Source: Zhongshania aquatica (GTDB taxonomy: Bacteria; Pseudomonadota; Gammaproteobacteria; Pseudomonadales; Spongiibacteraceae). From it: DNA of 64,000 nt. A program made the translations under genes and the position numbers. The notes below the pieces were generated by a model. It was not told the origin of the DNA. It saw nothing but the letters and a program-made list of their open reading frames with translations, and ran no database searches. The DNA lies in contig NZ_JANZNQ010000010.1 in the NCBI RefSeq assembly GCF_027257955.1, forward strand, positions 62,001 to 126,000, read 5' to 3'. Shown piece by piece: positions 4,135 to 24,023 of the stretch (position 1 is the first letter of the stretch; each line of letters opens with the position of its first letter).

Positions 4135-4171
4135 TTGCGCCACACGCTTCAATACAAGGATTAATAGCACC

Positions 4172-4942
4172 ATGAACTACTTCAATTTAGACGGGAAAGT
4201 CAGCCTGATTACTGGCGCCTCAAGTGGATTAGGTGTGCACTTTGCCAATGTACTTGCCAATGAGGGAGCAACTGTTATTCTCGCCGCACGCCGTGCCGAC
4301 AAACTAGCCTCGGCGGTGGAGACTATTCGTAATAACGGTGGCAAAGCCTTTGCTATCACCATGGACGTATCAAACGCAGAGAGTGTAGAGAAAGCATTCG
4401 CGGTCATCCAAAACGAACACGGCGGTGTGGATGTACTGGTGAATAACGCAGGTGTTGCCGATGACCCTAAGAAGTTTTTAGATACCACAGAAGACGATTG
4501 GAACTGGGTAATGGAAACTAACCTCACTGGCGCATGGCGGGTTGCGCGAGCAGCAGCCCTACAAATGAGTAATAACAATACTGCCGGCAGCATTATCAAC
4601 ATCGGCTCAATTTACGGACTACACACCGGCGTCATGAAAGTGGCTTACAACGTCTCCAAAGTTGCCGTGGTTCAACTTACCAAGTCTATGGCAATGGAGC
4701 TGTGCCGCAAAAATATTCGCGTCAACGCACTCTGCCCCGGCTGGTTTGTTACCGAAATCAATGACAGCTACTTTTCATCTGAGGGCGGTCAACGTTACAT
4801 ACAGGGCTTTCCATCAAAACGCCTAGGTAAAATGGAAGACTTAAGCGTGCCACTACTACTATTAGCCAGTAATTCTGCCGGTGCGTATATGAACGCTACG
4901 ACACTGACCGTAGACGGTGGTTTGATTGAATCCCCCATCTAA
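4172..4942 (+). CDS. SDR-family oxidoreductase
   Basis: This is a classical short-chain dehydrogenase/reductase of 256 residues. It has the TGASSGLG cofactor motif at 14-21, a DMDVS-type adenine pocket (here TMDVSN), NNAG near 92, and the catalytic triad Ser146, Tyr159 and Lys163 (YNVSK). It ends with the usual DGG segment. AAGGA precedes ATG 4172. It lies 37 bp after the wax ester synthase and 38 bp before the acyl-CoA synthetase on the same strand, so co-transcription is likely. The context points to fatty acyl or beta-keto/hydroxy acyl redox chemistry, but the substrate cannot be read from the sequence. Confidence 0.88.
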   Translation: MNYFNLDGKVSLITGASSGLGVHFANVLANEGATVILAARRADKLASAVETIRNNGGKAFAITMDVSNAESVEKAFAVIQNEHGGVDVLVNNAGVADDPKKFLDTTEDDWNWVMETNLTGAWRVARAAALQMSNNNTAGSIINIGSIYGLHTGVMKVAYNVSKVAVVQLTKSMAMELCRKNIRVNALCPGWFVTEINDSYFSSEGGQRYIQGFPSKRLGKMEDLSVPLLLLASNSAGAYMNATTLTVDGGLIESPI

Positions 4943-4980
4943 CTAGTAAACATCCACCCATCACACGCGACGAGCCCCCA

Positions 4981-6549
4981 ATGACAAACGTTAGCCCAGT
5001 ACGCAGTTTTAATGAACTTATTGCTAAGCACGCAGCGACTCAACCAAACAATAATGCGACCATATTTAATGGCCGCAAAACCAGCTATGGTGAGCTAGAT
5101 AAAGTCAGTAACCGTTTCGCCAACGCCTTGCTCGGCGCAAATATTAGCAAGGGTTCACGGGTTGGCATACTGGCGAAAAATTCAGACACCTACCTACAAC
5201 TTCTGTTCGCCTGTGCCAAGGTCGGCGCAGTGGCAGTTGGGCTGAATTGGCGACTCTCGCCCGCCGAGCTAAGCTACATAGCTAATGACAGCGACATGGA
5301 GTTGTTATTTGTTGGTACTGAGTTTTTTGACGGCGCGCAAACAGTAAGCACCGCTGCACCAAAACTAAAGCACATCATTAGCCTAAATAACTCGCATCCA
5401 CATTGGCCGACCATACATGACTGGGCTAGCGACGTTGACACGCCACCAAGCATTTCTGTTTCTCCTGACGACGCTGCATTGCAGCTGTACACCAGCGGCA
5501 CCACCGGCCACCCCAAAGGCGTGGTTCTGCCCCATAGAGCATTTTTTGATCCTTGGATTTACGATCCTGATCCGCTGATGGCGTGGAATGAAGTGAGCCA
5601 AGATGAAGTGTGCCTATTGGCAATGCCCTTCTTTCATGTCGGCGGCATCGGGCTCTGCTTTATGTCCCTTCGCGCAGGTTGCAGTGCTGTAATTGTGCCC
5701 GAATTCTCGCCCATGGAATTTCTCCGCCTAGTGCCAGAGCATAAGGTTACACGAACCTTTCTCGTTCCCGCTGCGATACGCTCTATATTGCTGCTACCCG
5801 AAGCATCCAGTGCTGACTGGTCATCATTAAAGCTCGTTATTTATGGCGCGGCCCCGATGCCAGAAGCCTTGTTACTTGACGCATTCAAGATACTAAAATG
5901 TGATTTCACCCAGTTATACGGTATGACCGAAGTGTGTGGCGCAGTTGTACATTTACCACCACAAGATCATATTGAAGGCAGCACCCGCTTACGGGCTGCA
6001 GGAATACCAATACCATCAACAGACATCAAAATTATCGACGGCGCGGGTCAGTTAGTAAAACAAGGGGCGGTAGGCGAAATACTACTGAGCAGCCCCGCAG
6101 TAATGCAAGGCTATTGGAAAAATGAAGACGCTACCGCTAAAACACTAGTTGATGGCTATATACATACCGGCGATGCAGGCTATCAAGATGAAGATGGTTA
6201 TCTGTATATCTTCGACCGCGTCAAAGACATGATTATTAGCGGTGGCGAAAACATTTACCCCATTGAAGTCGAAAATGTGCTTTACAGCCACCCTGATATT
6301 AGCGATGTAGCGGTTATTGGTATTCCCGACGACAAATGGGGTGAACTAGTTGCCGCCGTTGTAGTGCTTAATAATGGCCGCTCACCTACAGAGAGCGAGC
6401 TTATAGATTATGTGAAAACACACATCGCGAGCTACAAATGTCCAAAGAAAATTATTTTCACAGATGAACTCCCCCGCAACGCGTCGGGAAAAATACTTAA
6501 ACGCGAACTAAGAAAGCCCTATTGGGAATCACTAGAACGTAAAATTTAA
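4981..6549 (+). CDS. Acyl-CoA synthetase (AMP-forming, long/medium-chain fatty acid ligase type)
   Basis: The 522-residue adenylate-forming enzyme has the P-loop-like TSGTTGHPKG motif at 171-180, the YGMTEVCGA motif, the DGYIHTGDAGYQDEDGYLYIFDR linker region and the C-terminal catalytic lysine in ASGKILKRELR. It activates a carboxylic acid as acyl-AMP and then acyl-CoA in the cytoplasm. The overall pattern resembles fatty acid-CoA ligases rather than acetyl-CoA synthetase. It is the third gene of the lipid cluster and may feed acyl-CoA to the upstream wax ester synthase (inference). Confidence 0.9.
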   Translation: MTNVSPVRSFNELIAKHAATQPNNNATIFNGRKTSYGELDKVSNRFANALLGANISKGSRVGILAKNSDTYLQLLFACAKVGAVAVGLNWRLSPAELSYIANDSDMELLFVGTEFFDGAQTVSTAAPKLKHIISLNNSHPHWPTIHDWASDVDTPPSISVSPDDAALQLYTSGTTGHPKGVVLPHRAFFDPWIYDPDPLMAWNEVSQDEVCLLAMPFFHVGGIGLCFMSLRAGCSAVIVPEFSPMEFLRLVPEHKVTRTFLVPAAIRSILLLPEASSADWSSLKLVIYGAAPMPEALLLDAFKILKCDFTQLYGMTEVCGAVVHLPPQDHIEGSTRLRAAGIPIPSTDIKIIDGAGQLVKQGAVGEILLSSPAVMQGYWKNEDATAKTLVDGYIHTGDAGYQDEDGYLYIFDRVKDMIISGGENIYPIEVENVLYSHPDISDVAVIGIPDDKWGELVAAVVVLNNGRSPTESELIDYVKTHIASYKCPKKIIFTDELPRNASGKILKRELRKPYWESLERKI

Positions 6550-6599
6550 CTACGACAGCCACCTATACGACTTGCGCCACCATTACGATTCACGTAACA

Positions 6600-6640
6600 A
6601 GCTCAAAGGCAAAAAATTATCATTTTTTTGCCTTTGAGCT
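6600..6640. repeat. Long perfect inverted repeat after the acyl-CoA synthetase gene
   Basis: Two 17-base arms (6600-6616 and 6624-6640) are exact reverse complements around a 7-base loop. The outer part of the stem is AGCTCAAAGGC and the inner part is six A:T pairs. It could end the lipid operon, but the T-run lies inside the stem rather than after it, so it is not a textbook intrinsic terminator. Confidence 0.55.
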
Positions 6641-6752
6641 GACTTTCCCGTCCACATTCAGTCTATAGTTAGTATTAACTAGGCACACCATTCTTCGTGA
6701 CTGGAACGCCCCAGCAGTAACATTATCTACAGATAATAAGCAGAAGTAACAC

Positions 6753-7883
6753 ATGCCAGTATTTTCAAAAAACCTAATGGCCGCAGCAATATTTAGTGCC
6801 TTGGTAGCTTGTAGCGGCATTGACGCACAAGATACCGAAAAGCTAAATATTCAAGCGCCAAGTGCATCGCAGGTAGCTGCCCTTTTAAATCCTGAGGACA
6901 GCGACAAAGTACTGGACGTTAGCATATTTCCGGAAGACAACATTCTGGCGATGAATGCCGAAATGCGCTATTTCGTAGAAGAGAATGTTCCCGCCGCATT
7001 ATCACCCCGGGCACGGTTAACCTATCTGCTTGACAGCATGGTTAGGCCATCTCAGCTTGGCTTAAAATACGATCCAGGGATTACCCTAAACGCCACCGAA
7101 ACATTTGAGCAGCGCACTGGGAACTGCCTTTCTCTCACGTCACTCTTCATCGCTCTCGCAAGAGAAGCCAAGCTCAATGTGTATTACAACGAAGTGACGA
7201 TCCCGCCCAGCTGGGACATGGTCAGCGACAATAGTATGGTGTTTTATAAACACATCAATGCCATTGTCGATTTCGGAAAAGACGGCAAAGAAGTTGTCGA
7301 TCTCAGCGTTGATAATTACGAATATCATTACCCACAACACCGGGTAACTGAACAAGAGGCTGCCGCACAGCACTACAATAATCGGGGCGCTGAATTTCTT
7401 AATCTAGGCGACAATGACAAGGCGCAACTGTATTTTAGACGCGCGCTTTACCTGGACCCCCAAGCAGGGCATATCTGGGGAAACCTAGGCACCCTACTAC
7501 GCCGCCAACAACGAAATACGGACGCAGAGATCGCCTATCGCTACGCACTATCGCTTAACCCAAACGACCAAGTGGCCATTAGTAATCTAGGCCGCTTGTA
7601 TCGGGAGCTAGGCAATAAAGAAGAGGCGCGTAAGCTTGAGAAAATAGCAGAGAACTTCCGCAAGAAAAATCCCTTTTGGCATTACAGTCGTGCGAAGGCT
7701 GAGTATGAGAAAGGTAATTTTGATGAGGCGCTAACATCTATTCAACAGGCAATACGTCTTCAGAAAAATGAATACCGTTTCTATCGATTTGCCTCACTAA
7801 TCTATTTCCGTCAGGGAAAGCTAGTACTTGCACAGCAATTTTCTGACAAGGCGAGCAGACTTAAGCTTTCCGCCGAAAAGTAA
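6753..7883 (+). CDS. Lipoprotein with transglutaminase-like domain and TPR repeats
   Basis: The 376-residue protein begins with a short lipoprotein signal; the lipobox LVAC puts the lipidated cysteine at residue 20. Residues about 50-195 resemble the SirB1/transglutaminase-like fold, with the nucleophile-type cysteine in RTGNCLSLTSLF and a downstream histidine in YKHINAIVDF. About 205-345 contain tetratricopeptide repeats (for example GNLGTLLRRQQRNTDAEIAY). It is probably a periplasm-facing, membrane-anchored protein that binds or cleaves a partner. Function is unknown. It is transcribed alone and converges on the TonB receptor gene. Confidence 0.75.
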   Translation: MPVFSKNLMAAAIFSALVACSGIDAQDTEKLNIQAPSASQVAALLNPEDSDKVLDVSIFPEDNILAMNAEMRYFVEENVPAALSPRARLTYLLDSMVRPSQLGLKYDPGITLNATETFEQRTGNCLSLTSLFIALAREAKLNVYYNEVTIPPSWDMVSDNSMVFYKHINAIVDFGKDGKEVVDLSVDNYEYHYPQHRVTEQEAAAQHYNNRGAEFLNLGDNDKAQLYFRRALYLDPQAGHIWGNLGTLLRRQQRNTDAEIAYRYALSLNPNDQVAISNLGRLYRELGNKEEARKLEKIAENFRKKNPFWHYSRAKAEYEKGNFDEALTSIQQAIRLQKNEYRFYRFASLIYFRQGKLVLAQQFSDKASRLKLSAEK

Positions 7884-7895
7884 ATTAGCACCCAC

Positions 7896-7917
7896 AAAAA
7901 AGGCGCCTTCCGGCGCC
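7896..7917 (-). terminator. Intrinsic terminator for the TonB receptor transcript
   Basis: Read on the minus strand, GGCGCC-GGAA-GGCGCC forms a 6-bp GC stem followed by six T residues. It lies about 45 bases after the stop codon of the TonB-dependent receptor. Confidence 0.8.
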
Positions 7918-7960
7918 CAATTCAGCAGATCCTTTGCCTTTAACTATTCAAAACAGAATA

Positions 7961-10600
7961 CTAGTATTTCCAGCTCAGGCTGAGGCCTACACTTGTACCA
8001 ACATCTTGCTCAAGAATTTTAACGTTTTGGCCACTACTGTTCTTTTGCTCAAATTCTCGACTAGAGTCTAATAGATTAGAAACTTTAACTTTTAGCGACA
8101 GAGTTTCAGTCGGGTAGTAGTTGTAAATCAAATCCAAAGAACCGAATGGCTGTTCAAACGCGTCGTCATTGCCAGAGGTACCCGCAAAGAAAATACGCTC
8201 TCCAGAAATATTATATAGAAGCGAAGCACTGTGACGCTCATCTGGCGAGTCATAACCAAGCGAGGCATTTACCACGTAGGCAGAGTGGCCAGTCAAACGA
8301 CGATTCGTGTTAGTCACTTCGTTATTACTGGTAATAGTAATTTCAGAATCACTTAACGTCACGTTACCCGACAGAAACAAACCAGCCGGTAAGGTTTTCA
8401 AACCTTCAAATTCAACGCCGTATACTTCGCCGGAATCACCATTGATATAACGCAGTACAGTATCGTCGTCAGATCCTGCGCCTTGCACTTGCTCTATTGG
8501 CAATGTTAGATCTTTGTAGAATAGTGACACTGTGAAATTATCTCCACCATCATAGTAAAACTCACCGCGCAAATCGTAATTGCGAACATCGGTCGACTTC
8601 AAGTTCGGATTACCAAAGACGCGCACACTCAACTCGGGATCGATATAAGCAACGTCTGCAAGCTCACGCAAGTCTGGTCGAACTACGGTATCGCTGACGC
8701 TAAAGCGAACTTGAAACTCATTCGCGCCGATCAAACTCATACCTGAGTATGTGAGTGCGAAACTTGAATAAATGTCGTCGTTCTGAATAGCAAACGTTTG
8801 ATTCGGATCCTGCAATTGATTAATCAACTGCTGGTTGAATACACCGGTAAAGTCGAGCAAGTTAACCGGTAATACCGCCTGCTGGTACTCTTCGTAACGA
8901 GCGCCGACAGTTGCGCGCCACTCTTCGGTCATCCGGAAATCTAAGCCACCATATGCTGCGTTTACCTTCTGCGCAGCAACATAGCTTTCATTTCCGAAGC
9001 CCGACCCCATGGCGATGTCAAAGGCATTATTTAAATCGTTAATACGCGCATCAGTAAATACCGTTTGTGGCGTACCCACAGTTGCCGTTGTGCCTACGTT
9101 AGCGGTGTAGCCGTAGTATTCACGCGATTTTTCAGAATTCCACCAGCCCCCAGATACCGTAAGCTCACGACCATCAATATCGATGGGTAATTCTAGGCGT
9201 CCACCCCAGCTCTCAACATTATCTTCCAAAGACAGAAACTCAAACTGCCCTGCGGTCGATGACTGTGAAATGAATGGTGTTGCGGGCGACGTATTTCTGT
9301 CAATCGAGCCAGAAAAAGTCGTCGCATTGGGGACGTCTGTCGTGGCTTTCGCGTCGGAGTAAAACCAATCAAAACTCAACATTTCCAGTTCTGCTAGCGG
9401 CGCAAATTCACCGAAGCGATGACTACCCGACAACTGCGTTAATTCCAGCTCGCGCTCTTCTAAGCGTGTTGCATACTTCAAATTAGGGATATTATCGGCA
9501 GCCGGATTATTATTGCTAAAGCCCGTTGTTATACGTGCTTCATCTGCATTATTTTGAATAAGATAGTGGCTAAGCTGCAAAGTATTATCTTTCGCATACT
9601 CTGCTCCCAAAACAACCGCCAAGGTTGTGCGCTCTTCGTAGACACTTCTTTCCACATCGGAGAAGTTAACATTGGGATTACCGATACTGCGCTTGGTCTG
9701 ATTTTTATTGCGATATTCTTCGTCGTAAGCACCGCTTATAGATGCACCTAAAACGAGGTCATCAGTCACATCCCACGCGTTGCCAAGATCCACTTTAATA
9801 TCACGATCTGGATCAAGACTACCGCGTTTAATAGCAACATTGCGATTTAAAGAGGTAATTAAATCTCGCTGGATTTGCTCAGCGTCATCCCGCGTCATGG
9901 TGTTTCCCGCAGCATTTTCAATATCGAAAATATTGCTTTGCGACAAATCCCCTTTGTAACGACTAATCGCGTTGCTTAACGCCTGTGGCATAGAGCCAGA
10001 TCCGCCCGGGTAGGTAAGACCTTTATCACTTTCAGTGTTCATTCCTGTACCGATACTAACCGCAGCAACTGGGCCAGAAGGCACGCTGCGAGTTCGGATA
10101 TCGATAGCACCGCCGCCAAAGTTAGCAGGTAGCTCAGGACCCCAGGATTTCTGAACCTTTAATGATTCAACGATACTTGCCGGAAACAAATCCAAAGGGA
10201 TAACACTTCGCGCTAAATCAGGCGATGGCACTGCAGCGCCGTTTACCGTCACGTTGCTGTAACGTTCACCCAAACCGCGAATATAAATAAATTTATTATC
10301 TACTAGCGTTACACCCGTCACTCGGCGCAACGCTGCACCGATGGTGCTATCACCCGCGCGAGCAATGGCTTCAAAACCAAGGAAATCTGCAGAGTAAGGT
10401 AATTCAAGACGTTCATCTGTAAGTGAGGCGGCTGCGCTTTGTAAGCGCCCAACCACAACCACTTCTTCTAGCGACGCTGGCGAAAATTGTTCGCTATCGT
10501 CTGCCGCGATATCTTGAGCTATCGCCGAGCTCATTAGCCCGCCGGTTGCCAGCGCTATGGCTATAGATAGCTGCTTTCGCGCAAATCGTTTAGTTAACAT
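7961..10600 (-). CDS. TonB-dependent outer-membrane receptor
   Basis: The 879-residue protein has a signal peptide (cleavage near SAIA, residue 28), a TonB-box-like EEVVVVGR at about 45-52, a plug domain (AALRRVTGVTLVDNKFIYIRGLGERY, GGGAIDIRT) and a 22-strand-type barrel ending in SLSWKY with the terminal aromatic residue. Such receptors import scarce ligands with TonB/ExbBD energy; the ligand is not identifiable from the sequence. AGGA precedes ATG 10600. It is 112 bp downstream of the beta-helix lipoprotein gene on the same strand. The Pho-box-like array in front of that gene suggests both respond to phosphate (inference). Confidence 0.93.
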   Translation of the reverse strand: MLTKRFARKQLSIAIALATGGLMSSAIAQDIAADDSEQFSPASLEEVVVVGRLQSAAASLTDERLELPYSADFLGFEAIARAGDSTIGAALRRVTGVTLVDNKFIYIRGLGERYSNVTVNGAAVPSPDLARSVIPLDLFPASIVESLKVQKSWGPELPANFGGGAIDIRTRSVPSGPVAAVSIGTGMNTESDKGLTYPGGSGSMPQALSNAISRYKGDLSQSNIFDIENAAGNTMTRDDAEQIQRDLITSLNRNVAIKRGSLDPDRDIKVDLGNAWDVTDDLVLGASISGAYDEEYRNKNQTKRSIGNPNVNFSDVERSVYEERTTLAVVLGAEYAKDNTLQLSHYLIQNNADEARITTGFSNNNPAADNIPNLKYATRLEERELELTQLSGSHRFGEFAPLAELEMLSFDWFYSDAKATTDVPNATTFSGSIDRNTSPATPFISQSSTAGQFEFLSLEDNVESWGGRLELPIDIDGRELTVSGGWWNSEKSREYYGYTANVGTTATVGTPQTVFTDARINDLNNAFDIAMGSGFGNESYVAAQKVNAAYGGLDFRMTEEWRATVGARYEEYQQAVLPVNLLDFTGVFNQQLINQLQDPNQTFAIQNDDIYSSFALTYSGMSLIGANEFQVRFSVSDTVVRPDLRELADVAYIDPELSVRVFGNPNLKSTDVRNYDLRGEFYYDGGDNFTVSLFYKDLTLPIEQVQGAGSDDDTVLRYINGDSGEVYGVEFEGLKTLPAGLFLSGNVTLSDSEITITSNNEVTNTNRRLTGHSAYVVNASLGYDSPDERHSASLLYNISGERIFFAGTSGNDDAFEQPFGSLDLIYNYYPTETLSLKVKVSNLLDSSREFEQKNSSGQNVKILEQDVGTSVGLSLSWKY

Positions 10601-10628
10601 AATCAGAATCCTAAGTGCTCAGGAAAAT

Positions 10629-10681
10629 GCCCTCTCGAGCGGAGGGCGTTCTAGCTTTGTACTAGCGGGCCGCTAGCCCGC
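10629..10681 (-). repeat. Two adjacent hairpins between the lipoprotein and receptor genes
   Basis: One stem pairs GCCCTC (10629-10634) with GAGGGC (10642-10647). The second pairs GCGGGC (10665-10670) with GCCCGC (10676-10681). Neither is followed by a T-run on the minus strand. They look more like mRNA processing or stability elements that tune receptor versus lipoprotein output than terminators; this role is inferred. Confidence 0.5.
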
Positions 10682-10712
10682 CTTTCCTGTGTAACAGGGT
10701 ATTGCCAATTAC

Positions 10713-12404
10713 TTAGGGATTAAGAGGAGCGCTTAAACCTACCGTCCAGCCTGCCAACCAGTCGTCGCCCGCATTTGCGCCACCAAGGTACGTTGGCGCG
10801 TCAAAGAAGGGATTAATTGCAGATACATCCGTTAACTGAGTGGCTTGATCAAACGCTACGGTGCCGTCTGCTTTAGTTAACGCTGCTGCAGTTTTGTAGC
10901 CACGCGTACCTACACCACCAACAATCAAGCTTTGAGCGGGAATTTCACCAGCGGCAAGAACTTCGTTATTGATGTTGTCATTTTTGGGGGTGTCTGCGGA
11001 TCCGTCAGTCCCTCCTTTCAACCAAACAGCTAGATCAAAGTTACCTTTAGTGGCACCGCTTACTTTCAGAGGCTCACTACAAGCAATCAAGTTACTGCTT
11101 GCTTTACTGACACCTGACTTAGCAGCAGCAATAGTTTGCGGACCTTCACTATCATCAAGCTCCAAACACTCTTGACTCGCCATGCCTACCGCGTTAGACG
11201 TTACGATAGAGTTGTACATTTGAAAGTAAACACCTTCACGGAATAGCGGACCTTCTGAATCACCTTTAGACGTCGCATTAATACCTGCATTTTGTTTAAC
11301 GCCTGACGTAACACAGGTCATGTTAGAAATGATCATATTGGTGGTTGGGGTGATATCGTCTGCGCGATTTTCACCGGTGTTATCGCCTTCTACGCAGCGG
11401 TTAGAACCAGAAGTATGAACGACCACGGCGTACTGAATCATGCCGTTATAACCTTCCGAGTAGTCGATTGAATCGTCGCCCACGTTAACCGCAACTAAAT
11501 GATCGGCATTGACTGCACCGCCAAAAAACTCGAAACCATCATCCTGTGAGGTGTAAGCTTGCAGGTGGCTTAAAGTAGTGCCACTACCAACGCCGTTGAA
11601 GGTAAATGCGTTAAGCTCGTTACCATCAACGACTTCAAAACCCGCGTGTTTAACAACAACATATTTCATTACACCAGAGCTCTCAGCGTTGTTGTTACCG
11701 CCGTATGTTGCTGGCTGGCCCTCTGCTTCTTGGTTACAGTTATGCGGGTTATTTGCAGTAGGAGCAAAGTCACTCACTGAGCCCGTGCCTGAACCAGTCG
11801 CCGTACCGTCATGACATTTATTAGTCATGCCGTTACCGTTAATTTGTAAACCGCCCCACAGACCGCGATCATCTTCAGTGGCAACGCCATCAATATCTTC
11901 GTCAGCCGTGAAGATGATTGGCGCAGTCGCTGTGCCTTCAGCAAAAATTTGTGAGCCACGGGTAATACGAACATAGCTAGTTGGCTGCTTGAACACCATA
12001 GTCACACCAGCTTCGATATTCAGCTTAGTGCCCTGACCTTCTTGTAAAATAGGCGTACCGGTTGCAGCCGCTTGTCCGTCCACGTCTTCACCAATAAACA
12101 AGCTATCGGCAAATTCATGCACACCGGCTATAGCAGAAAAGGTAACTTGATCTGCTGTAATAGGATTGTTGGAGCTAACAAATGCCGCTGGATAGAAGCA
12201 GTCGCCCGATGAAAATTGACCTTGGAAGGTGTTGCCGTTCTTAACGTAGGAAGCGCATGGGTTATTGCTAGTACTGCCACCGGTGTTAGTGCTGTTGTCT
12301 TGGCTATTATCGACAGTCGTCGGGCTTAAATTAATATCGCCACCACCACAAGCTGCTAGTAGCAAAGCGGATGACATTGCTGTCAGTGCAAAAAACTTTT
12401 TCAT
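10713..12404 (-). CDS. Outer-membrane-type beta-helix lipoprotein, partner of the TonB receptor
   Basis: The 563-residue protein starts at ATG 12404, chosen because GGAGA lies about 9 bases upstream; a TTG 21 bases earlier lacks a ribosome site. The signal ends in LLLAAC, lipidating Cys19, followed by GGG, which favours export to the outer membrane. The body is rich in Gly, Asn and Thr, with repeating short strands (VTMVFKQPTSYVRITRG, WGGLQINGNG, MKYVVVKHAG) typical of right-handed parallel beta-helices. I do not recognise a named family. Its position upstream of a TonB receptor suggests a surface ligand-binding or ligand-processing lipoprotein. Confidence 0.78.
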   Translation of the reverse strand: MKKFFALTAMSSALLLAACGGGDINLSPTTVDNSQDNSTNTGGSTSNNPCASYVKNGNTFQGQFSSGDCFYPAAFVSSNNPITADQVTFSAIAGVHEFADSLFIGEDVDGQAAATGTPILQEGQGTKLNIEAGVTMVFKQPTSYVRITRGSQIFAEGTATAPIIFTADEDIDGVATEDDRGLWGGLQINGNGMTNKCHDGTATGSGTGSVSDFAPTANNPHNCNQEAEGQPATYGGNNNAESSGVMKYVVVKHAGFEVVDGNELNAFTFNGVGSGTTLSHLQAYTSQDDGFEFFGGAVNADHLVAVNVGDDSIDYSEGYNGMIQYAVVVHTSGSNRCVEGDNTGENRADDITPTTNMIISNMTCVTSGVKQNAGINATSKGDSEGPLFREGVYFQMYNSIVTSNAVGMASQECLELDDSEGPQTIAAAKSGVSKASSNLIACSEPLKVSGATKGNFDLAVWLKGGTDGSADTPKNDNINNEVLAAGEIPAQSLIVGGVGTRGYKTAAALTKADGTVAFDQATQLTDVSAINPFFDAPTYLGGANAGDDWLAGWTVGLSAPLNP

Positions 12405-12461
12405 ATTTACTATCTCCGAAACCAACTCTAAGGATTTTTTAGGTTTGAATTTATGTAGCGT

Positions 12462-12517
12462 ATGGTAGGGAGACTTAGTGACAGATATGTGAATACTATG
12501 TTTCAGTTATGTGACAC
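12462..12517 (-). promoter_or_regulatory. Putative PhoB-regulated promoter: four tandem 11-bp repeats plus -10
   Basis: On the minus strand four contiguous 11-mers read GTGTCACATAA (12507-12517), CTGAAACATAG (12496-12506), TATTCACATAT (12485-12495) and CTGTCACTAAG (12474-12484). They resemble the CTGTCAT-plus-AT unit of Pho boxes. Six bases after the last unit is TACCAT (12462-12467), a plausible -10. The four-unit array with a 6-base gap to the -10 matches the known layout of the E. coli pstS promoter. The start codon of the lipoprotein gene is 57 bases further on. Confidence 0.65.
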
Positions 12518-12615
12518 GTAGAAAAAAGTTCCTTGGAAATGCGGATAAGAAGCGGCTTAGCAAAATAGCTATTTAAGGCAACAAGAGACTTATAGATGAA
12601 ACTGGGGTGGCAGAA

Positions 12616-12649
12616 ACAAAAATGCCGCTGAATTCAGCGGCATTTTTAT
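12616..12649 (-). terminator. Bidirectional intrinsic terminator downstream of purA
   Basis: A 24-bp perfect palindrome (12621-12644, containing GAATTC at its centre) is flanked by A-runs and T-runs on both sides. It therefore terminates the minus-strand purA transcript and would also stop plus-strand read-through. Confidence 0.85.
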
Positions 12650-12667
12650 GTTTCAAATAAAAATTAA

Positions 12668-13981
<1,314 letters not shown>

Positions 13982-14013
13982 TTAATACACTGACCCGTAA
14001 CTACCGAGCCCAA

Positions 14014-15183
14014 TTAATTCAGCGGTTTAACACACCACTGCTCTTCCACTTTACTAATTACCCGGTCACATGCCGCATCGGTCTCCTGACCAGGTAAACC
14101 GCAAATCACTTTCTCTCCAGACTCACGCAAAGATTGTACAAACTGCCATTGCGAAGGGCTTGGATCATAAGGAGCAAATATTGCCGCCACGTCTGTTACT
14201 GGCGGCAACAGGCCCAGCAGGGCCTTTAAATCTATACTAAAACCGGTGGCGGGACGGGCACGGCCAAATAACACGCCGATATCGTCGTAGCGACCGCCTA
14301 AAGCGAGGGCTTGCCCGTGCTCGCGCACCAGCGCCGAAAACACCACCCCCGTGTGATAGTGCAAACCGCGTAATTCAGCCAAATCAAAATAGAACTGAAT
14401 ATCTGGAATACGCAGTGCCAAGGACTCAGTTAACTCTTCTAAACTAGCTATTGCTGCTACTGCGTCGGGAATATCGGCAAATAGTTCTCGTCCGCGTTGC
14501 AACACATCTTCACCACCGTGTAACTCGTTCAATTCCAATAATTGCTTGGCAACATTGGCGGCAACTGGCAGTCCGGCAACGAATAACTTTAATTCTGTTT
14601 TTGCTTTGCGCTGCAAGATATCGAAATAGCTCGCTTCTTGTTCCGCATTTAATGCTGCCGCCTTAACGACTGCACGGTAGATACCCACATGACCGGTATC
14701 TAGGGTAATGCCATTTAAACCAGCTACTCGCAGCGTTTCCAGCATCAAGCATATGATTTCTAAATCACTGGCTGGACTATTATCACCGTATAGTTCGGCG
14801 CCCAATTGTAAAGGTGAACGTGAAGCCAATGGCTGCTTCGGCTTGCTGTGCAATACACTACCGGCATAACACAAACGCACAGGACCTTCGCGCCCCAAGC
14901 TATGGGCGTCTATTCGCGCAGCTTGCGGGGTAATATCCGCCCGCAAACCCATCATTCTACCGGTGAGTTGATCTGTCACTCGAAAGGTCAGCAAATCAAT
15001 ATCACTACCCAAACCGACGAGTAAGGATTCTGTGTATTCCAGCATAGGCGGAATAATCAACTCGTAGCCCCAACGTTTATAGAGGTCTAAAAGTTGCCGA
15101 CGCAATGCTTCAACCTGAGCCGCTTGCGCGGGCAACAGTTCTTCCACACCGTCCGGAAGTAGCCAACGATCTACCGAAGTCAT
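14014..15183 (-). CDS. hisZ: ATP phosphoribosyltransferase regulatory subunit
   Basis: The 389-residue protein is a HisRS-like paralogue. It has class II synthetase-like motifs (a motif-2-like RADITPQAARI and a GGRYDDIGVLFGR segment) but is shorter than histidyl-tRNA synthetase and lacks its anticodon-binding domain. Such HisZ proteins form a complex with short HisG and give it histidine feedback control. hisG itself is not in the window. It sits between the DUF2065 gene and purA, as it does in Pseudomonas. Confidence 0.93.
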   Translation of the reverse strand: MTSVDRWLLPDGVEELLPAQAAQVEALRRQLLDLYKRWGYELIIPPMLEYTESLLVGLGSDIDLLTFRVTDQLTGRMMGLRADITPQAARIDAHSLGREGPVRLCYAGSVLHSKPKQPLASRSPLQLGAELYGDNSPASDLEIICLMLETLRVAGLNGITLDTGHVGIYRAVVKAAALNAEQEASYFDILQRKAKTELKLFVAGLPVAANVAKQLLELNELHGGEDVLQRGRELFADIPDAVAAIASLEELTESLALRIPDIQFYFDLAELRGLHYHTGVVFSALVREHGQALALGGRYDDIGVLFGRARPATGFSIDLKALLGLLPPVTDVAAIFAPYDPSPSQWQFVQSLRESGEKVICGLPGQETDAACDRVISKVEEQWCVKPLN

Positions 15184-15218
15184 ACGCGATTTTTGCTCTC
15201 TTGATTAGCTATCTGACT

Positions 15219-15404
15219 TTACCGCAGCAAACTCAATAATATGAGGCCCGATATCATACTTATTAAACCGGCGATGCGGACGTTACGACTGTCCATATCT
15301 GCCATTCGGTATGCCAATAACCGCCAGCGTTCTGGACTCAGAAACGGAAGCACACCTTCAATAATAAGCACCAGACTGATAGCCACTGACAGTTCCTGCC
15401 ACAT
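15219..15404 (-). CDS. DUF2065 small membrane protein (YjeT-like)
   Basis: This 61-residue protein begins MWQELSVAISLVLIIEGVLPFLSP, the usual start of DUF2065/YjeT proteins; the family length fixes the start at 15404 rather than upstream. It has two predicted transmembrane helices (about 4-20 and 41-59) linked by a short basic loop. Its place between hflC and purA/hisZ is conserved across gammaproteobacteria. A link to the HflK-HflC complex is often assumed from position, but no function is established from the sequence. Confidence 0.88.
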   Translation of the reverse strand: MWQELSVAISLVLIIEGVLPFLSPERWRLLAYRMADMDSRNVRIAGLISMISGLILLSLLR

Positions 15405-15489
15405 GCGCTTTGCCTGCCACAAACATAAAAAATCCGCGCTGCCCAAAGACGTTAAGGTCTCGGATCAGCCCGGATGCGTGAATCATACC

Positions 15490-15515
15490 ACACTCCCCGC
15501 CATAGCGAGGAGTGT
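15490..15515 (-). terminator. Hairpin between hflC and the DUF2065 gene (weak terminator?)
   Basis: Arms ACACTCC (15490-15496) and GGAGTGT (15509-15515) form a stem that extends inward with one mismatch. No T-run follows on the minus strand. It may be a partial terminator or an mRNA stabiliser at the end of hflC. Confidence 0.35.
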
Positions 15516-15523
15516 CAGGTAAT

Positions 15524-16399
15524 TTAACGCTTTTCCGACCCTTGTTTTAGGTAGCGGAAAAACTCGCTTTCGCTATCAACAACCAGCAGGTCACCCTTAT
15601 TGCTAAAGGACGCCCGATATGCCTCTAAGCTGCGAACAAAAGCATAAAACTCGGGGTCGGCACTATAAGCCGCTGCGTAGGTGCGAGCTGCTAATGCATC
15701 GCCCTCACCGCGCAATACTTGCGCGTCTCGGTAGGCATTTGCACCGATAACAGTGCGCTGACGATCAGCCGTCGCACGAATTTTCTCAGCCAATTCGCGG
15801 CCAGTAGAACGATGCTCACGCGCTTCGCGCTCACGCTCAGACTTCATTCGATCAAACACCGACTGGCTAACCTGTGATGGCAGATCGATACGCTTAACTC
15901 GGACATCAACTAACTGGATACCAAATTCGCTAGTAGTGATCTCGTTAAGGTCGCGAGTTAAATCGGTCATCAACAGATCGCGCTCACCCGACACCACTTC
16001 GTGGAAGGTACGCTCGCCGAACTTATTTCGCAGACCAGTATTAATACGCTGAGCTAACAAACCCTCGGCGCGAACTTCCTCACCGTTGGTCGCGGTATAG
16101 TACTTTTGGGTATCGATAACACGCCATTTAGCATAGAAATCCACGTCTAGCGGCTTTTTCTCAATGGTTAGAAAACGCTGCGTCGGCGCATCCAAGGTCA
16201 AAATACGACGCTCGAATTTACGCACCATATGCACAAACGGTGTTTTAATATGCAGACCCACTGCGATATCGGGGTCGACGATTTCACCAAACTTGAGCAG
16301 TACGGCCCGTTCAGTCTCACGCACGATATACAAAGAATTGAACGCCAGCACCAACGCGCCCAACAATAAAATGACAACGGTAAAAGAACGATTACCCAT
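15524..16399 (-). CDS. hflC: Protease modulator HflC
   Basis: The 291-residue protein starts at MGNRSFTVVILLLG, with one transmembrane helix at about 5-25 followed by a periplasmic SPFH/band-7 domain (ETERAVLLKFGEIV). HflC and HflK form the large cage around FtsH that modulates degradation of membrane proteins and of regulators such as lambda CII in E. coli. The start at 16399 is 1 base after the hflK stop, with GAGG inside the hflK end, indicating translational coupling. A longer reading frame start at 16450 would overlap hflK and lacks support. Confidence 0.95.
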   Translation of the reverse strand: MGNRSFTVVILLLGALVLAFNSLYIVRETERAVLLKFGEIVDPDIAVGLHIKTPFVHMVRKFERRILTLDAPTQRFLTIEKKPLDVDFYAKWRVIDTQKYYTATNGEEVRAEGLLAQRINTGLRNKFGERTFHEVVSGERDLLMTDLTRDLNEITTSEFGIQLVDVRVKRIDLPSQVSQSVFDRMKSEREREAREHRSTGRELAEKIRATADRQRTVIGANAYRDAQVLRGEGDALAARTYAAAYSADPEFYAFVRSLEAYRASFSNKGDLLVVDSESEFFRYLKQGSEKR

Positions 16400-16400
16400 G

Positions 16401-17543
16401 TTAGCGACCCTCTCTGCGAGTGGTTTGCGTATCGCGGCGTAACTGCTCAACCACCTTATCTGTCAACGCACGTATATCGACTTCTTCTTGAGAACCCTTG
16501 CGAACAGTCGCAGATTTATCCATTAATTTATCGATAGGCAGATACATCATATTGTTGCCGCCATCGACGTCGACCATCACTTTAGTCGCGTCACTATATA
16601 AGGTTTCTAAGGCATCAATATACAGACGCTCGCGAGTTACCTGAGGTGCCTTGCGATACTCAGTAAATAAGTTTGCGAATCGCTGCGCCTCACCCTCTGC
16701 CCTTGCCACAACCTGCTCTTTATAGGCCTGCGCTTCTTCTAGTTGGCGCTGAGCCGCACCGCGCGCCTCAGGAATGATGCCATTTGCATACGCTTCAGCT
16801 TCGTTCTTTAAACGCTCGCGATCCTCTTTGGCTCGCGTTACGTCATCAAAGGCATCCTGCACTTGCGACGGCGCTTGGGCATCTTCAATATTAACCTTGG
16901 CCACCAAAATACCGCTTTGGTAGGTATCCAAATACGCCTGCAGGCGCTGCTGAGTATCAACCGCAATCTGTTCGCGGCCTTCCGTAATAACCTGATCCAT
17001 TTTTGAACTGCCCACCACATGACGCAGCGCACTTTCCAGCGCGTGCTCCAAGCTGAGCTCAGGACTTTTTACTTTGAGAAGAAAGTTGGCTGGGTCAGCG
17101 ACGGTGTATTGAACCGACAAGGCGACATCAACAATATTTTCATCTTCAGTCAACATTTGACCGCGGCTGGCCACTCCGCGCACTTTGGTCACATTTATTT
17201 TGTTCACTTCATCAATCAGCGGCGGATTCCAACGCAGACCTGGCATCACGGTTTCGTGATACACACCGAGCCGCAAGACAACAGCCCGCTCCTGCTGGTC
17301 GACCTGATAAAATCCGAATAGGCCCCACACGACAACCGCCAACACAGCAATAATTACCAGCGTGCTCGCGCCTAATTTTATATCACCACCGCCATTGCTT
17401 CCGCCGGGTTTTTTCCCCCCACCGAAAATGCTATTGAGCTTTTCTTGAAGCTTTTTAAGCGCTTCATCTAAATCCGGCGGCCCTTGGTTTTTACCACCCC
17501 AAGGATCATTATCTTTGCCACCACCCGGCTCATTCCAAGCCAT
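16401..17543 (-). CDS. hflK: FtsH protease activity modulator HflK
   Basis: The 380-residue protein has a Gly/Pro-rich cytoplasmic N-tail (WNEPGGGKDNDPWGG), a transmembrane helix at about 60-80 (LVIIAVLAVVVWGLFGFY) and a long SPFH domain with the charged coiled-coil tail. It assembles with HflC around FtsH at the inner membrane. AGGAGA lies 8 bases before ATG 17543. Gene order hflX-hflK-hflC is the standard one. ftsH itself is found at the other end of this window. Confidence 0.96.
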   Translation of the reverse strand: MAWNEPGGGKDNDPWGGKNQGPPDLDEALKKLQEKLNSIFGGGKKPGGSNGGGDIKLGASTLVIIAVLAVVVWGLFGFYQVDQQERAVVLRLGVYHETVMPGLRWNPPLIDEVNKINVTKVRGVASRGQMLTEDENIVDVALSVQYTVADPANFLLKVKSPELSLEHALESALRHVVGSSKMDQVITEGREQIAVDTQQRLQAYLDTYQSGILVAKVNIEDAQAPSQVQDAFDDVTRAKEDRERLKNEAEAYANGIIPEARGAAQRQLEEAQAYKEQVVARAEGEAQRFANLFTEYRKAPQVTRERLYIDALETLYSDATKVMVDVDGGNNMMYLPIDKLMDKSATVRKGSQEEVDIRALTDKVVEQLRRDTQTTRREGR

Positions 17544-17646
17544 AGCCTTCTCCTGTGTTATCGTATTGTTTCGCTAATTAATCTTCTCGGTCATATTGAC
17601 CACCACATAAAATCTGCGACTCAACGACTTTTGCCCGGCGGGCAGT

Positions 17647-18963
17647 CTAGCAGAATTCTTCCTGCGTGCTAACCGGACGAGTCGACTGTAAATCCGCTTC
17701 AGACACCCCTTCACCCGACAAAAAACGCTGCCAATCGGATTCCATTAGACGCAATGTCAAACGCTGAGAACCATCATCGTTTAATTGCTCATCCATCACC
17801 GCATCCAAGCCATACAGGCGCGCACGCAAACGACCCTGTGCTGCTGTTAATGTGATGGTGGTTTCGCAAATCTCATTGCCCAGAATTTCGGTCAAAGCTT
17901 GATGAAATAACGCAAGTCCTTGTGAATCTCGCGCAGACAACCACACGCGAACCGGAATGCCCATATCATTGCGCTCAATACGGGGCTCAACGTCGATCAA
18001 ATCTGTTTTGTTGTACACCTCTAGCATCGGTATGTCTGCGGCACCGATTTCAGCCAACACTTTTACTACCTGCTTAATATTGTCTTGCCGCTCAGGGTCT
18101 GCACAATCCACTACGTGAATCAGCAAGTCGGCTATCGCCGCCTCCTCGAGCGTCGCCCGAAACGCCTCCACCAACTTATGGGGAAGATGACGGATAAACC
18201 CAACGGTATCTGCCAAAATAACGGGGCCAACATCACCCACTTGAATGCGTCTTACCGTGGGATCAAGGGTCGCAAATAACTGATCGGCGGCATACACATG
18301 GGACGCGGTCAGCACATTGAATAATGTCGACTTACCGGCATTGGTATAACCCACAATCGATAGCGCGGGAATTTCGGCTCGGCGCCTCGCTCTCCTCGCC
18401 TGATCGCGCTGCTTACGAACTTTCTGCAGTCGGCCTTGAATACTGGTAATACGGGCACGCAATAAGCGCCGATCAGTTTCAAGCTGACTTTCACCTGGGC
18501 CACGCAAACCAATACCGCCCTTTTGACGCTCAAGATGCGTCCACCCCCGCACTAAGCGGGTAGACATATGCTGAAGCTGGGCGAGCTCAACCTGCAATTT
18601 ACCCTCATGGGTATTCGCACGCTGAGCAAATATATCGAGTATCAAACCGGTACGATCAAGCACGCGGCATTGCAGCTCGCGCTCGATATTGCGTTCTTGG
18701 CTCGGAGAAAGGGCGTGATTAAACAGCACTATCTCACCCTCATTGGCGATCAGCGCTTCACGAATTTCTTCAAGTTTGCCAGTACCGACGAATAGGCGGG
18801 CATCCGGCCGCTTTCGCGAGCCAGTAATGAAGGCAACCGGATCCCCCCCTGCGGAGGTCACCAGTTGCACAAATTCGTCGGAATCTTCGCGCTCGTCTTC
18901 ACTGTGAAAATCCAGATGGACGAGAATTGCACGTTCACCGGAGTTAGGTCTTTCAAATAGCAA
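17647..18963 (-). CDS. hflX: Ribosome-associated GTPase HflX
   Basis: The 438-residue protein has the HflX N-domain (GTGKLEEIREAL), the Gly-rich linker GLRGPGESQLETDRR and a G-domain with G1 GYTNAGKSTLFN, G3 DTVGFI and G4 NKTD. HflX splits stalled 70S ribosomes and hibernating particles in a GTP-dependent way. It starts at a TTG (18963) preceded by GAGG at a 7-base distance, and no in-frame ATG fits. It lies 31 bp after hfq on the same strand. Confidence 0.96.
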   Translation of the reverse strand: MLFERPNSGERAILVHLDFHSEDEREDSDEFVQLVTSAGGDPVAFITGSRKRPDARLFVGTGKLEEIREALIANEGEIVLFNHALSPSQERNIERELQCRVLDRTGLILDIFAQRANTHEGKLQVELAQLQHMSTRLVRGWTHLERQKGGIGLRGPGESQLETDRRLLRARITSIQGRLQKVRKQRDQARRARRRAEIPALSIVGYTNAGKSTLFNVLTASHVYAADQLFATLDPTVRRIQVGDVGPVILADTVGFIRHLPHKLVEAFRATLEEAAIADLLIHVVDCADPERQDNIKQVVKVLAEIGAADIPMLEVYNKTDLIDVEPRIERNDMGIPVRVWLSARDSQGLALFHQALTEILGNEICETTITLTAAQGRLRARLYGLDAVMDEQLNDDGSQRLTLRLMESDWQRFLSGEGVSEADLQSTRPVSTQEEFC

Positions 18964-18994
18964 GAACGAACCTCAATTCAAAGAATTGTCGTAA

Positions 18995-19252
18995 TTAAAC
19001 GTCTTCTTGCTCTTCGTCGTCTTCTGGCGGATGCGCCATCGGCAGACGAACAACACGAGACGGTACGACAGTTGAAATCGCGTGCTTATATACCATTTGG
19101 CTAACGGTATTTTTCAGCAACACCACGAATTGGTCGAATGACTCGATTTGGCCCTGCAATTTAATGCCGTTGACCAAGTAGATAGATACCGGAATACGCT
19201 CCTTGCGAAGTATATTCAGATAAGGGTCTTGTAAGCTATGCCCTTTTGACAT
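18995..19252 (-). CDS. hfq: RNA chaperone Hfq
   Basis: The 85-residue protein has Sm1 ([24 protein letters not shown]) and the Sm2 signature YKHAIS at 55-60, both intact, with a short acidic C-tail (EDDEEQEDV). As a hexamer it pairs small RNAs with mRNAs. The start MSKGHS at 19252 is fixed by a strong GGAGG ribosome site and the family start. It lies between miaA and hflX. Confidence 0.98.
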
Positions 19253-19375
19253 GGTGTAGCCTCCTGTATGCCCAAACCGGGCGTCGATAAAACGTATCAA
19301 GAAAAGTAGCAATATGGATCGCAAACCTGCGAATAAGTTCGCGATCAGACTGGGTAACTTGCAGTATACCGTAAG

Positions 19376-20332
19376 TTATTGATATACGGCAGCGCCAGAA
19401 TGCATCAAGACCTTATTTAGCTGAGATTCTGTGGTTTCGCCAGTATCTAGCCAAATTAAGTCTGGCCAGCCACGCAACCACGTTAATTGACGCTTAGCTA
19501 ACTGACGTGTGGCGATTAACGCGCGTTCAAAAGCCGCTTCCACCTCGTAATCGCCGCGCAAATACTCCCAAACCTGACGATAACCCACAGCTCGAATAGA
19601 GGGCAAATCCGGATGAAGATCACCGCGCGCCATCAGCCCCGCAACCTCGTCAATAAAACCACCGGCAAACATCTGCTGCAGACGCTGCTCTATACGGGCG
19701 TGCAAAACAGATCGATCAGACGGCGCAATCGCAAACTGGTGGACATTATAGGGTAGCGACTGTGCAGACTGCCTAGCCCGCCATTCACTCATGGTAATAC
19801 CACTAATGCGATACACCTCCAACGCTCGGGACAATCGCTGTGAGTGATTCGGATGGATCCGCTCTGCGGACTCAGGATCAATCGCTGCCAATTCGGCGTG
19901 AATCGCAGGCCAACCAAGCTCAGTCGCCTTGGCGTTTATATCGGCACGGACTTGAGGATCTGCGCTGGGCATATCCGCCAACCCCTCAATCAAAGCTTTG
20001 AAATACAACATTGTGCCGCCGACTAAAACAGGGATACGCCCCGCCGCAGTACTTGCCGCCATCGCCGCCAGAGCATCCCGCCGAAATTGCGCAGCTGAAT
20101 AGGGCTCCGAAGGATCACAGATATCAATTAATTGATGGGGGTAGCGAACCAGCGTCGCGGCATCCGGTTTTGCACTACCGATATTTAAGCCTCGGTAAAC
20201 GAGCGCAGAATCTACACTAATCAAATCGCAGGGAAGATGGTCACTCAACGCCAAGGCCAAATCCGTCTTGCCCGCCGCCGTTGGGCCCATCAAGAAAATC
20301 GCAGAAGGCAAAAAATCAATATCAGCGGCCAC
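19376..20332 (-). CDS. miaA: tRNA dimethylallyltransferase
   Basis: The enzyme adds dimethylallyl to A37 of tRNAs reading UNN codons, the first step of ms2i6A formation. It has the P-loop GPTAAGKT at 16-23, the [18 protein letters not shown] substrate motif and [15 protein letters not shown] prefer GTG 20332 (318 residues) because it gives the ten-residue lead before AIFLMGP seen in E. coli; a TTG at 20350 would extend it further into mutL. Its start lies inside the end of mutL, so the two genes are coupled. Confidence 0.94.
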
Positions 20333-22175
20333 GCAAGAACCATTTATCAAGCTCGGCCATACCGACCTGAACCCAGGTCGGGCGACCGTGATTACACTGA
20401 CCGCTGCGTTCTGTGGCCTCCATGTCGCGCAGTAAACCGTTCATTTCCGGCAGGGTCAAACGGCGGTTTGCACGCACCGAACCATGACACGCCATCGTCG
20501 ACAGGATCTCGTTAATATGTGCACGAATACGATCACTACTGCCGAATTCCAGCAAGTCTGACAATACATCCCGCACCAGTTGTTCAACCGATGTATCGGC
20601 CAAAATGGAAGGTAACTCCCGAACAATCACCGATTCCGACGCCGCGCGTTCAACCCGCATCCCCAGTTCAGCAAAAACATCGCTGTGTTGCTCCGCGCAA
20701 TCAGCTTCGCGCTCACTCACCGCTAAATTCATTGGCACCAACAACGGCTGACTGCGAATGCCTTCACCGTCACGCGCATTCTTCATTCGCTCATAGGTAA
20801 TGCGCTCATGGGCGGCGTGCATATCTACCAGCACCAAACCCTGCTGATTTTCAGCAAGAATGTAGACACCCTTCAACTGCGCCAGCGCGTAGCCTAGCGG
20901 CGGCGCAACACTCGCATCCCCTGTACTTAGGCCTTGAGGTGTCTGTAAGCGCTGATACCCCGCTCGCTGATCGGCCACTTCCGATGAAAACGAGGCAAGC
21001 TGAGGCCGATACTGGCTTTGATACGCCCCAGAAGAATTCGACAAGACCGCGTCACCAGCGCTTGGACCCGCCGCACTTTCCGTCAAGGCCATTGCCGACT
21101 GAGTTTCTGGCATTGCCAACATCGGCTCGCCCGTCATTTGCGGAACCGACGCATTCTGCGGCACTGTATCCGGACGCACATCCGCCAAGACTTTGTGTAG
21201 GGTGCGAAAAATGAAATCGTGCACTGTGCGGCCATCACGGAAACGCACCTCATGCTTAGTCGGGTGAACGTTGACATCCACTGACGCTGGGTCCAACTCT
21301 AAATAAAGAACAAAAGCCGGATGACGACCGTGAAATAGCACGTCCCGGTACGCCTGACGAACCGCGTGCACAACCAAACGATCACGCACATAGCGACCAT
21401 TCACATAGAAATGCTGCAAATCGGCCTGACTGCGGGAAAAACTTGGCAAAGCCACCCAGCCCCACAATCGCAACCCCATTGCTTCGCGGTCGATAAATAG
21501 GGTCTGCTCCATAAACGCCGGCCCGCAGACTGCCGCTAGACGACGCTCTTGCTCTAACTGGTTATTTGCTGGTTTAAGGCTATGAACAGCGCGGCCATTG
21601 TGGCGCAGAGAAAAGCCAACATCGTAGCGGCTCAAGGCCTGACGTTTAACCACCTCTTCCAAATGGTTAAATTCGGTTTTCTCAGTGCGCAGGAATTTCC
21701 GGCGGGCGGGGGTATTAAAAAATAAATCACGCACCTCAACGGTGGTGCCACGCGGGTGAGCGATTGGCGCTAGCACCGCCTCCATATCACGACCTTCACT
21801 ACGAGCAGACCAGCCGGAGTCACTGTCTTCACGGGCGGTACTCAAACTCAAGCGCGATACCGAACTAATACTGGCCAAAGCCTCGCCCCGAAAGCCCAAG
21901 CTCGCTACCGACTCTAAATCTTCAAGTACCGAAATTTTACTAGTGGCGTGACGGCTCAGGGCCAAGGGCAAGTCTTCGTGGGAAATACCTTCACCGTCAT
22001 CGCGGACGCGAATTAACTTAACACCGCCATCTTCTATCTCTAATTCGATACGACGAGCGCCAGCATCTAAACTGTTTTCAAGTAATTCTTTAACAACCGA
22101 GGCGGGTCGCTCAACAACTTCACCCGCCGCAATTTGGTTTGCCAAGCGCGGGTCTAGTAAATGGATTTTTGTCAT
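20322..22175 (-). CDS. mutL: DNA mismatch repair protein MutL
   Basis: The 617-residue protein has the GHKL ATPase N-domain ([35 protein letters not shown]), a Pro/Ser/Gln-rich linker around 350-430, and a C-terminal dimerisation domain. The endonuclease-type metal motif DQHAxxERxxYE is not kept: [15 protein letters not shown] gives the HAAHER variant of methyl-directed systems. It bridges MutS recognition to downstream nicking. The ATG overlaps the amiB stop by one base (TAATG). Confidence 0.97.
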
Positions 22176-23542: not shown

Positions 23543-24023
23543 ATTCGCTCAATTGGGCCAGAATTTGCTGCCCGCGCTGCGTAGTGCCGCGCGCGGCAAG
23601 TAGGCGGCCCACCCCCTGCTGCTCAATGCTAACCATTATGTCGGCAGATGGCAAAAATCCGCTACCACGCTGAGGCCACTCAACCAAACACACCGACGAA
23701 TCATCAAAATAATCCCGAATCCCCATATATTCCAGCTCTTCCGGATCGCCGAGACGATATAAATCAAAATGATACACACTGACAGGCTTGGCCATCGGCG
23801 GTTCCGTCGTCACCACTAATTCTTCATAAGCCTCCACCAAGGTATAGGTAGGACTTTTAACCGGTCCCAGATGACCAAAGGCGCGGAGTACACCTCGGCA
23901 AAATGTCGTTTTACCCGCGCCCAATTGGCCATCAAGATACACCACGGCGCCACCAATCATCGCTCGACCTAAAACTTCACCCGCCGCGACTGTCGCGTCT
24001 TCACCATCAAGATACTGCTGCAT
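23529..24023 (-). CDS. tsaE: tRNA threonylcarbamoyladenosine biosynthesis ATPase TsaE
   Basis: The 164-residue protein has the P-loop GQLGAGKTT at 32-40, the KSPTYTLVEAY motif and a VYHFDLYRL Walker-B-like segment, all typical of TsaE (YjeE). It works with TsaB and TsaD to make t6A37 in ANN-reading tRNAs and is essential in most bacteria. It overlaps nnr upstream by 17 bases and amiB downstream by 14 bases, so translation is coupled. Confidence 0.96.
   Translation of the reverse strand: MQQYLDGEDATVAAGEVLGRAMIGGAVVYLDGQLGAGKTTFCRGVLRAFGHLGPVKSPTYTLVEAYEELVVTTEPPMAKPVSVYHFDLYRLGDPEELEYMGIRDYFDDSSVCLVEWPQRGSGFLPSADIMVSIEQQGVGRLLAARGTTQRGQQILAQLSEYESD

Follow-up and report, generated by a model that had tools for sequence, protein, structure and literature searches.

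Does the array of short repeats at 12462-12517, on the minus strand of a 64,000-nt stretch of Zhongshania aquatica DNA (the window, meaning the whole stretch that was analysed), act as a PhoB-activated promoter, and what would the lipoprotein and TonB-dependent receptor (TBDT) encoded behind it then contribute during phosphate starvation? The locus is made up of the following features.

12668..13960, minus strand: purA, upstream of the array, named by eye from its protein
12474..12517, minus strand: two Pho boxes, that is four tandem 11-bp PhoB half-sites, predicted from the sequence, a weight matrix and the ranking of a promoter model in the same genome
12462..12467, minus strand: -10-like TACCAT, 6 nt past the array, kept as TANNAT in the genus and spaced as in E. 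coli pstS
10713..12404, minus strand: ElpS-like lipoprotein gene, with ATG at 12404 and GGAG shortly upstream; 563 aa, lipobox cysteine C19
10601..10712, minus strand: intergenic stretch in which GC-rich hairpins are possible (fold z-score), with a terminator-like stem at 10629-10647
7961..10600, minus strand: CC0171-like TBDT gene, with PF00593 and PF07715 over cut-off and CC0171-type homology

The initial annotation had described four contiguous 11-bp units, a 6-nt gap and a -10-like hexamer, in a layout likened to the E. coli pstS promoter. Reading of the minus strand from 12517 to 12462 confirmed the units as contiguous and head-to-tail (5' to 3': GTGTCACATAA CTGAAACATAG TATTCACATAT CTGTCACTAAG TCTCCC TACCAT), upstream of the lipoprotein gene, which the TBDT gene follows, and the fetched E. 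coli K-12 pstS promoter has the same geometry of four 11-bp units, 6 nt and a hexamer, there TATTTT. In both promoters the third unit is the weakest, the unit scores being 11.3, 6.4, 2.2 and 11.7 bits in the window and 16.0, 9.5, 3.3 and 7.1 bits in E. coli. The two arrays share 27 of 44 bases, ahead of different genes, and no other place in the window resembles the pstS array as closely; since the next non-overlapping place already reaches 24/44, plain identity to pstS is by itself weak evidence. Pho-box promoters are defined, in a review of the Pho system (PMC4415409), by tandem CTGTCAT-type 11-bp units. Set against a minimum of at least two such units the window has four, scoring 31.6 bits together, and they replace a -35 element at a fixed distance (6 nt) from TACCAT. 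PhoB and PstS of the same genome scored over their cut-offs, and the same box was found before phoB, before pstS and after pstS, where pstC is presumed from position. Between purA and the array, near 12618-12647, there is also a palindrome flanked by an A-run and a T-run, which is absent from the terminator-scan list.

The PhoB weight matrix, whose use had been suggested at the outset, was trained on 53 upstream regions from 18 same-genus genomes, namely those of phoB (18), of pstS (18) and of the gene presumed from its place after pstS to be pstC (17), with the lipoprotein promoter left out; all 53 regions were kept, even the pstC regions of L103-L106, which have no real box, and that of a pstS under its family cut-off (L108). 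In a scan of the 64-kb window the best non-overlapping four-unit place after the array scored -9.5 bits, and the computed per-position chance of the array's score is 6e-12 to 1.2e-10, varying with base composition. A degenerate four-unit pattern, written after the site had been seen, matched once in the window against 0.01 expected. The array also ranked first in its own genome, with E 2.7e-16, under a sequence-only promoter model built from 15 orthologue promoters with the window excluded, a ranking in which 150 of 1161 first-look candidates were scored; the other four matches up to E 10 ran from E 0.03 to 0.64.

These four matches bear on the idea that the array serves not PhoB but another OmpR/PhoB-family regulator with an 11-bp repeat. 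The genome holds 50 matches to the PhoB model, presumably mostly other response regulators, and the runner-up promoter match (L257, C107:160813-160852, E 0.03), which consists of tandem TGTCAC-type 11-bp repeats outside the listed ORFs, adjoins no recognised Pho gene. On the other side, the site was found by a matrix drawn from phoB, pstS and pstC upstream regions, and the remaining three matches lie before a phosphate-selective porin gene (Porin_O_P, one promoter accounting for two matches) and just after pstS. Control by such a regulator is judged very improbable. Two own-genome sites were also noted: a multi-unit Pho array (L032, C85:202424-202486) ahead of a gene for a phosphate-selective porin (PF07396, E 3e-53), and a two-unit Pho-like box of 14.5 bits (L033, C9:147985-148001) between divergent polyphosphate kinase and Ppx/GppA genes, on the window's contig outside the window.

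Conservation was evaluated in 57 related genomes, of which 27 gave a lipoprotein match and the 22 best loci were examined. The initial annotation had staked its reading on the 11-bp periodicity being kept in orthologues, and the array, the 6-nt gap and TANNAT were indeed retained in 17 of the 17 same-genus loci found, the window among them, with the array score reached by 0/300 shuffles at every one; one of the 18 genus genomes (84% complete) gave a paralogue-type match only. Outside the genus the arrays of L011, L013 and L021 were likewise reached by none of 300 shuffles and lack TANNAT at that spacing, while those of L012 (1/300) and L022 (10/300) are not convincing.

A wider comparison used the best 80 named loci listed (L115-L194), of which 78 had an upstream region that could be scored; two of the 80, L115 and L127, come from genomes already in the 57-genome set, the lipoprotein starts were assigned by our own lipobox rule, and the loci entering the promoter counts are phylogenetically non-independent. 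Among these best 80, a two-unit score of at least 12 was reached by 56/78 lipoprotein upstream regions and by 28/415 other ORFs of the same loci. With the 18 loci holding Pho or TonB2 genes removed from the best 80 listed, the figures became 41/60 against 11/314, and half-site spacings of 11 bp numbered 30 against 8 in control ORFs. The uncleaned control ORFs of the best 80 also peak at 11 bp (27), and this peak and the 28/415 arise at least partly because Pho genes share the same loci. As 14 of the 78 lipoprotein regions among the best 80 listed scored under 8 bits, the box is common and not universal. The four Caulobacter-type upstream regions (L252-L255) scored 8.5, 1.4, 1.4 and -0.6 bits under the genus-trained matrix, in contrast to the clear four-unit array of the window, so that promoter conservation is untraceable as far as Caulobacter.

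That the array is a chance resemblance could be argued from its two degenerate units (2.2 and 6.4 bits), and is opposed by the gap between 31.6 and -9.5 bits, by the 17/17 genus conservation, by the first rank in the genome and by the excess over control ORFs in the cleaned part of the best 80 loci; on the matrix score, the genus conservation and the genome-wide ranking it was rejected, its probability being negligible. Control of this promoter by phosphate starvation, as read from the DNA, is thereby a well-supported prediction.

The proteins themselves offered few named relatives. Searches with the lipoprotein were run on 10713-12401, with the start one residue short, and found no Pfam family at E 0.001 or E 1 and no NCBIfam family at E 0.001; a PDB sequence search with its profile gave a best E of 0.15. 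Weak right-handed beta-helix Pfam matches in 2 of 17 relatives hint weakly at such a fold. For the TBDT, the PDB sequence search returned no solved relative at E 0.001. SusC/SusD pairs, in which a TBDT and a lipoprotein are likewise encoded side by side, served as a working analogy only, the window protein having no match among Pfam families, SusD-type families included, at either threshold. Lipoprotein lengths across L115-L194, the best 80 listed, were seen to be mostly stepped (about 480-600, 860-970 and 1270-1370 aa), as if the protein held one, two or three copies of a domain, with which repeated matches within one ORF agree.

The interval between the two genes folds with a z-score of -2.38, and 3 of 200 shuffles fold equally well; the terminator scan gave 4 sites where shuffled sequence gave 2.1 (sd 1.4), and is by itself not above chance. 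In 18 loci folded for this gap (the window, L002-L010 and L014-L021) GC-rich hairpins of differing sequence were observed, with no shuffle baseline, some of them followed by a T-run. On the far side of the TBDT gene a convergent gene for a TPR protein (6753-7883, plus strand), with a signal peptide possible by eye, adjoins it.

Homology searches identified a precedent for the pair in Caulobacter crescentus, where ElpS (CC0170/CCNA_00169) and CC0171 are a homologous lipoprotein and TBDT in the same gene order. Measured by BLASTP against a Caulobacter-type genome (L252), which is not the named C. crescentus strain, the lipoprotein is 34% identical over 304 aa (E 2e-45) and the TBDT 26% over 851 aa (E 7e-54). 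Within its own genome, no protein other than the window TBDT matches the L252 receptor strongly (E 8e-49, the next being 5e-4). Of 397 Pseudomonadota genomes, 65 matched a 17-member lipoprotein profile, 57 at better than E 1e-60 with the own genome included, and so did 62 of 119 genomes from a single family taken for Caulobacteraceae. Some of the 57 may owe their match to paralogues of about 35% identity, and same-genome matches of that kind (L026, L029, L030 and, in the own genome, C63:124659-125831) were rejected as orthologues and judged to be a separate paralogue with no signal peptide by eye; the L029 copy sits between a lyase-family gene and a porphobilinogen deaminase gene. The orthologues L252-L255 carry an LAGC lipobox at residues 17-20 and N38 (counted in L252), both as in ElpS (PMC2996285), and in 4 of these 4 the TBDT gene is next after the lipoprotein gene. 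The lipobox cysteine is invariant in 21 aligned orthologues, the signal peptide having been read by eye. Like the window protein, the Caulobacter-type lipoprotein had no Pfam match at the cut-offs applied. The surroundings of L252 include polysaccharide-export, TBDT, T2SSC and secretin genes, the last three confirmed by Pfam; by contrast, no type II secretion (T2SS) genes, which are non-defining for the family, were recognised by reading the ORFs of window positions 4000-24000.

The profile matches, the lipobox and N38, the BLASTP results and the sole own-genome TBDT match place the pair in the ElpS/CC0171 family, and we conclude that it is a gammaproteobacterial member or counterpart of that family and not a new class of Pho gene. 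The initial annotation's statement that neither gene is a known Pho gene does not stand, as both are ElpS/CC0171 homologues and induction of the elpS promoter is reported to require PhoB (PMC5172544). Its broader proposal of an uncharacterised phosphorus-acquisition system at the outer membrane fared in two ways: the predicted regulation is well supported from sequence, and the novelty is cut by the ElpS precedent. Phosphate-starvation and PhoB control of the lipoprotein gene, predicted from the array in the window, is thus a reported property in Caulobacter (PMC2996285, PMC5172544). The PhoB regulon has elsewhere been counted as including TonB receptors and T2SS (PMC11208175), and the term TonB does not occur in the main text of the Pho review cited above (PMC4415409). 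A few searches of open-licence literature found no paper on the gammaproteobacterial pair.

As to what the pair does, the published work on ElpS points in part away from import. ElpS is described as a lipoprotein of the cell surface that is produced when phosphate is scarce and whose release depends on the T2SS, and its overproduction raised secreted alkaline phosphatase activity (PMC2996285), which points to mobilisation rather than import. It is therefore conceivable that the promoter is PhoB-driven and that the lipoprotein is a shed or surface phosphatase activator, as proposed for ElpS, next to a receptor that is an independent and roughly constitutive neighbour. Consistent with such an arrangement, cc0171 was reported to be constitutive (data not shown in that study; PMC2996285), T2SS parts lie beside 11 of the best 80 loci listed, a hairpin-forming stretch separates the two genes, and a Pho box of at least 10 bits was found upstream of 0 of 75 TBDT genes in the best 80. 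The same study reported no phosphatase activity for refolded or immunoprecipitated ElpS and detected no change in intracellular phosphate in Caulobacter (PMC2996285); the latter finding counts against the import reading, the former against an activator. So does the gene order, the receptor being directly downstream of the lipoprotein in 77 of the best 80 loci listed, where the remaining 3 end less than 1.5 kb from the lipoprotein gene, and so does the Pho box before an adjoining TonB2-type operon described below. The activator explanation is considered unlikely on balance, and is the most serious of the alternatives.

Support for the import of phosphorus comes from neighbours in the flanks. 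Within up to 6 kb per side of the best 80 loci listed, PhoR-like genes were found at 11, PstS at 7, TonB2-type parts at 10 and T2SS parts at 11, counts that stand without a background control and rest on tblastn thresholds of our own setting (the TonB2 entry of L129 is one 51-bit match). In L168 and L178, phoB, phoR and pstS, all over curated cut-offs, precede the lipoprotein-TBDT pair, with a 266-aa ORF of no family lying between them and the pair in L178. In some Alteromonadales loci the pair is adjoined by DUF3450, ExbB-, ExbD-, TonB- and TPR-type genes, a set of the kind that makes up the Vibrio-type TonB2 complex. Among the best 80 loci listed, DUF3450 is preceded by a Pho box of at least 17 bits in 6 of 8 DUF3450 loci (L164, L165, L170, L173, L178 and L183), the operons so led including ExbB/ExbD-type genes, and the other two (L166 and L194) have no such site of at least 16 bits. 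A Pho box in this position speaks for energised transport as part of the same response. In the window's genome, by contrast, the TonB2-type operon is on another contig, not adjacent to the pair (its parts beyond DUF3450 named by eye), and the array before it is weak, at 8.9 bits, with the other 16 genus loci ranging from -6.0 to 11.4. An 11-bp-periodic element (TGTTAC / TTCACG / TGTAAC) was noticed some 350 nt upstream of the DUF3450 match in the own genome (L262:958, on C52) and in L263-L278; it is conserved by eye in many species, degenerate, and mostly too weak for the Pho matrix.

The cargo could also be something other than phosphorus, such as a metal chelate for phosphatases or a membrane-lipid building block needed in phosphate starvation. 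Pho regulons do include genes without a direct phosphorus substrate, and the lack of a solved TBDT relative at E 0.001 is compatible with such a cargo. The adjacency of phoB, phoR and pstS in some lineages fits a phosphorus role more directly, while leaving room for this alternative, which is held to be rather improbable.

Taken together, the observed promoter anatomy, conservation, gene order and homology are likely to be best explained by a PhoB-activated promoter driving an ElpS/CC0171-type lipoprotein-receptor pair that acts in phosphorus acquisition. When phosphate runs short, the four tandem half-sites would stand in for a -35 element: phosphorylated PhoB would occupy them and bring sigma-70 RNA polymerase to the TANNAT -10. 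The resulting mRNA would encode the ElpS-family lipoprotein and, by partial read-through past the intergenic hairpin, the CC0171-family receptor; the lipoprotein may then reach the cell surface and capture or present a phosphorus-containing solute, which the receptor would import using TonB energy. The pair is probably, then, a TonB-driven phosphorus-acquisition pair. Against import stand the phosphatase results on ElpS, a cc0171 reported as constitutive and the weak own-genome TonB2-operon array. More tentatively, it is possible that the pair forms the outer-membrane portion of an importer of a phosphorus compound that is widespread in Alpha- and Gammaproteobacteria, under PhoB control and powered through TonB. 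On this view some Alteromonadales would encode it in one block (phoB-phoR-pstS-lipoprotein-receptor-[Pho box]-DUF3450/TonB2-type complex), an arrangement by which the starvation response may bring its own TonB motor. The few searches of open-licence papers brought up no account of the pair's clear four-unit Pho promoter in Gammaproteobacteria, of the family's wide spread across gamma- and alphaproteobacteria, or of a connection with a TonB2-type motor that carries a Pho box.

In summary, a large lipoprotein-TBDT family that has no name in Pfam is tied to phosphate starvation by promoter, neighbourhood and homology together, which opens the poorly understood ElpS finding in Caulobacter to tests in many marine bacteria. 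Should import be what the pair does, these bacteria would have a TonB-driven way of acquiring phosphorus at the outer membrane in addition to phosphate porins.
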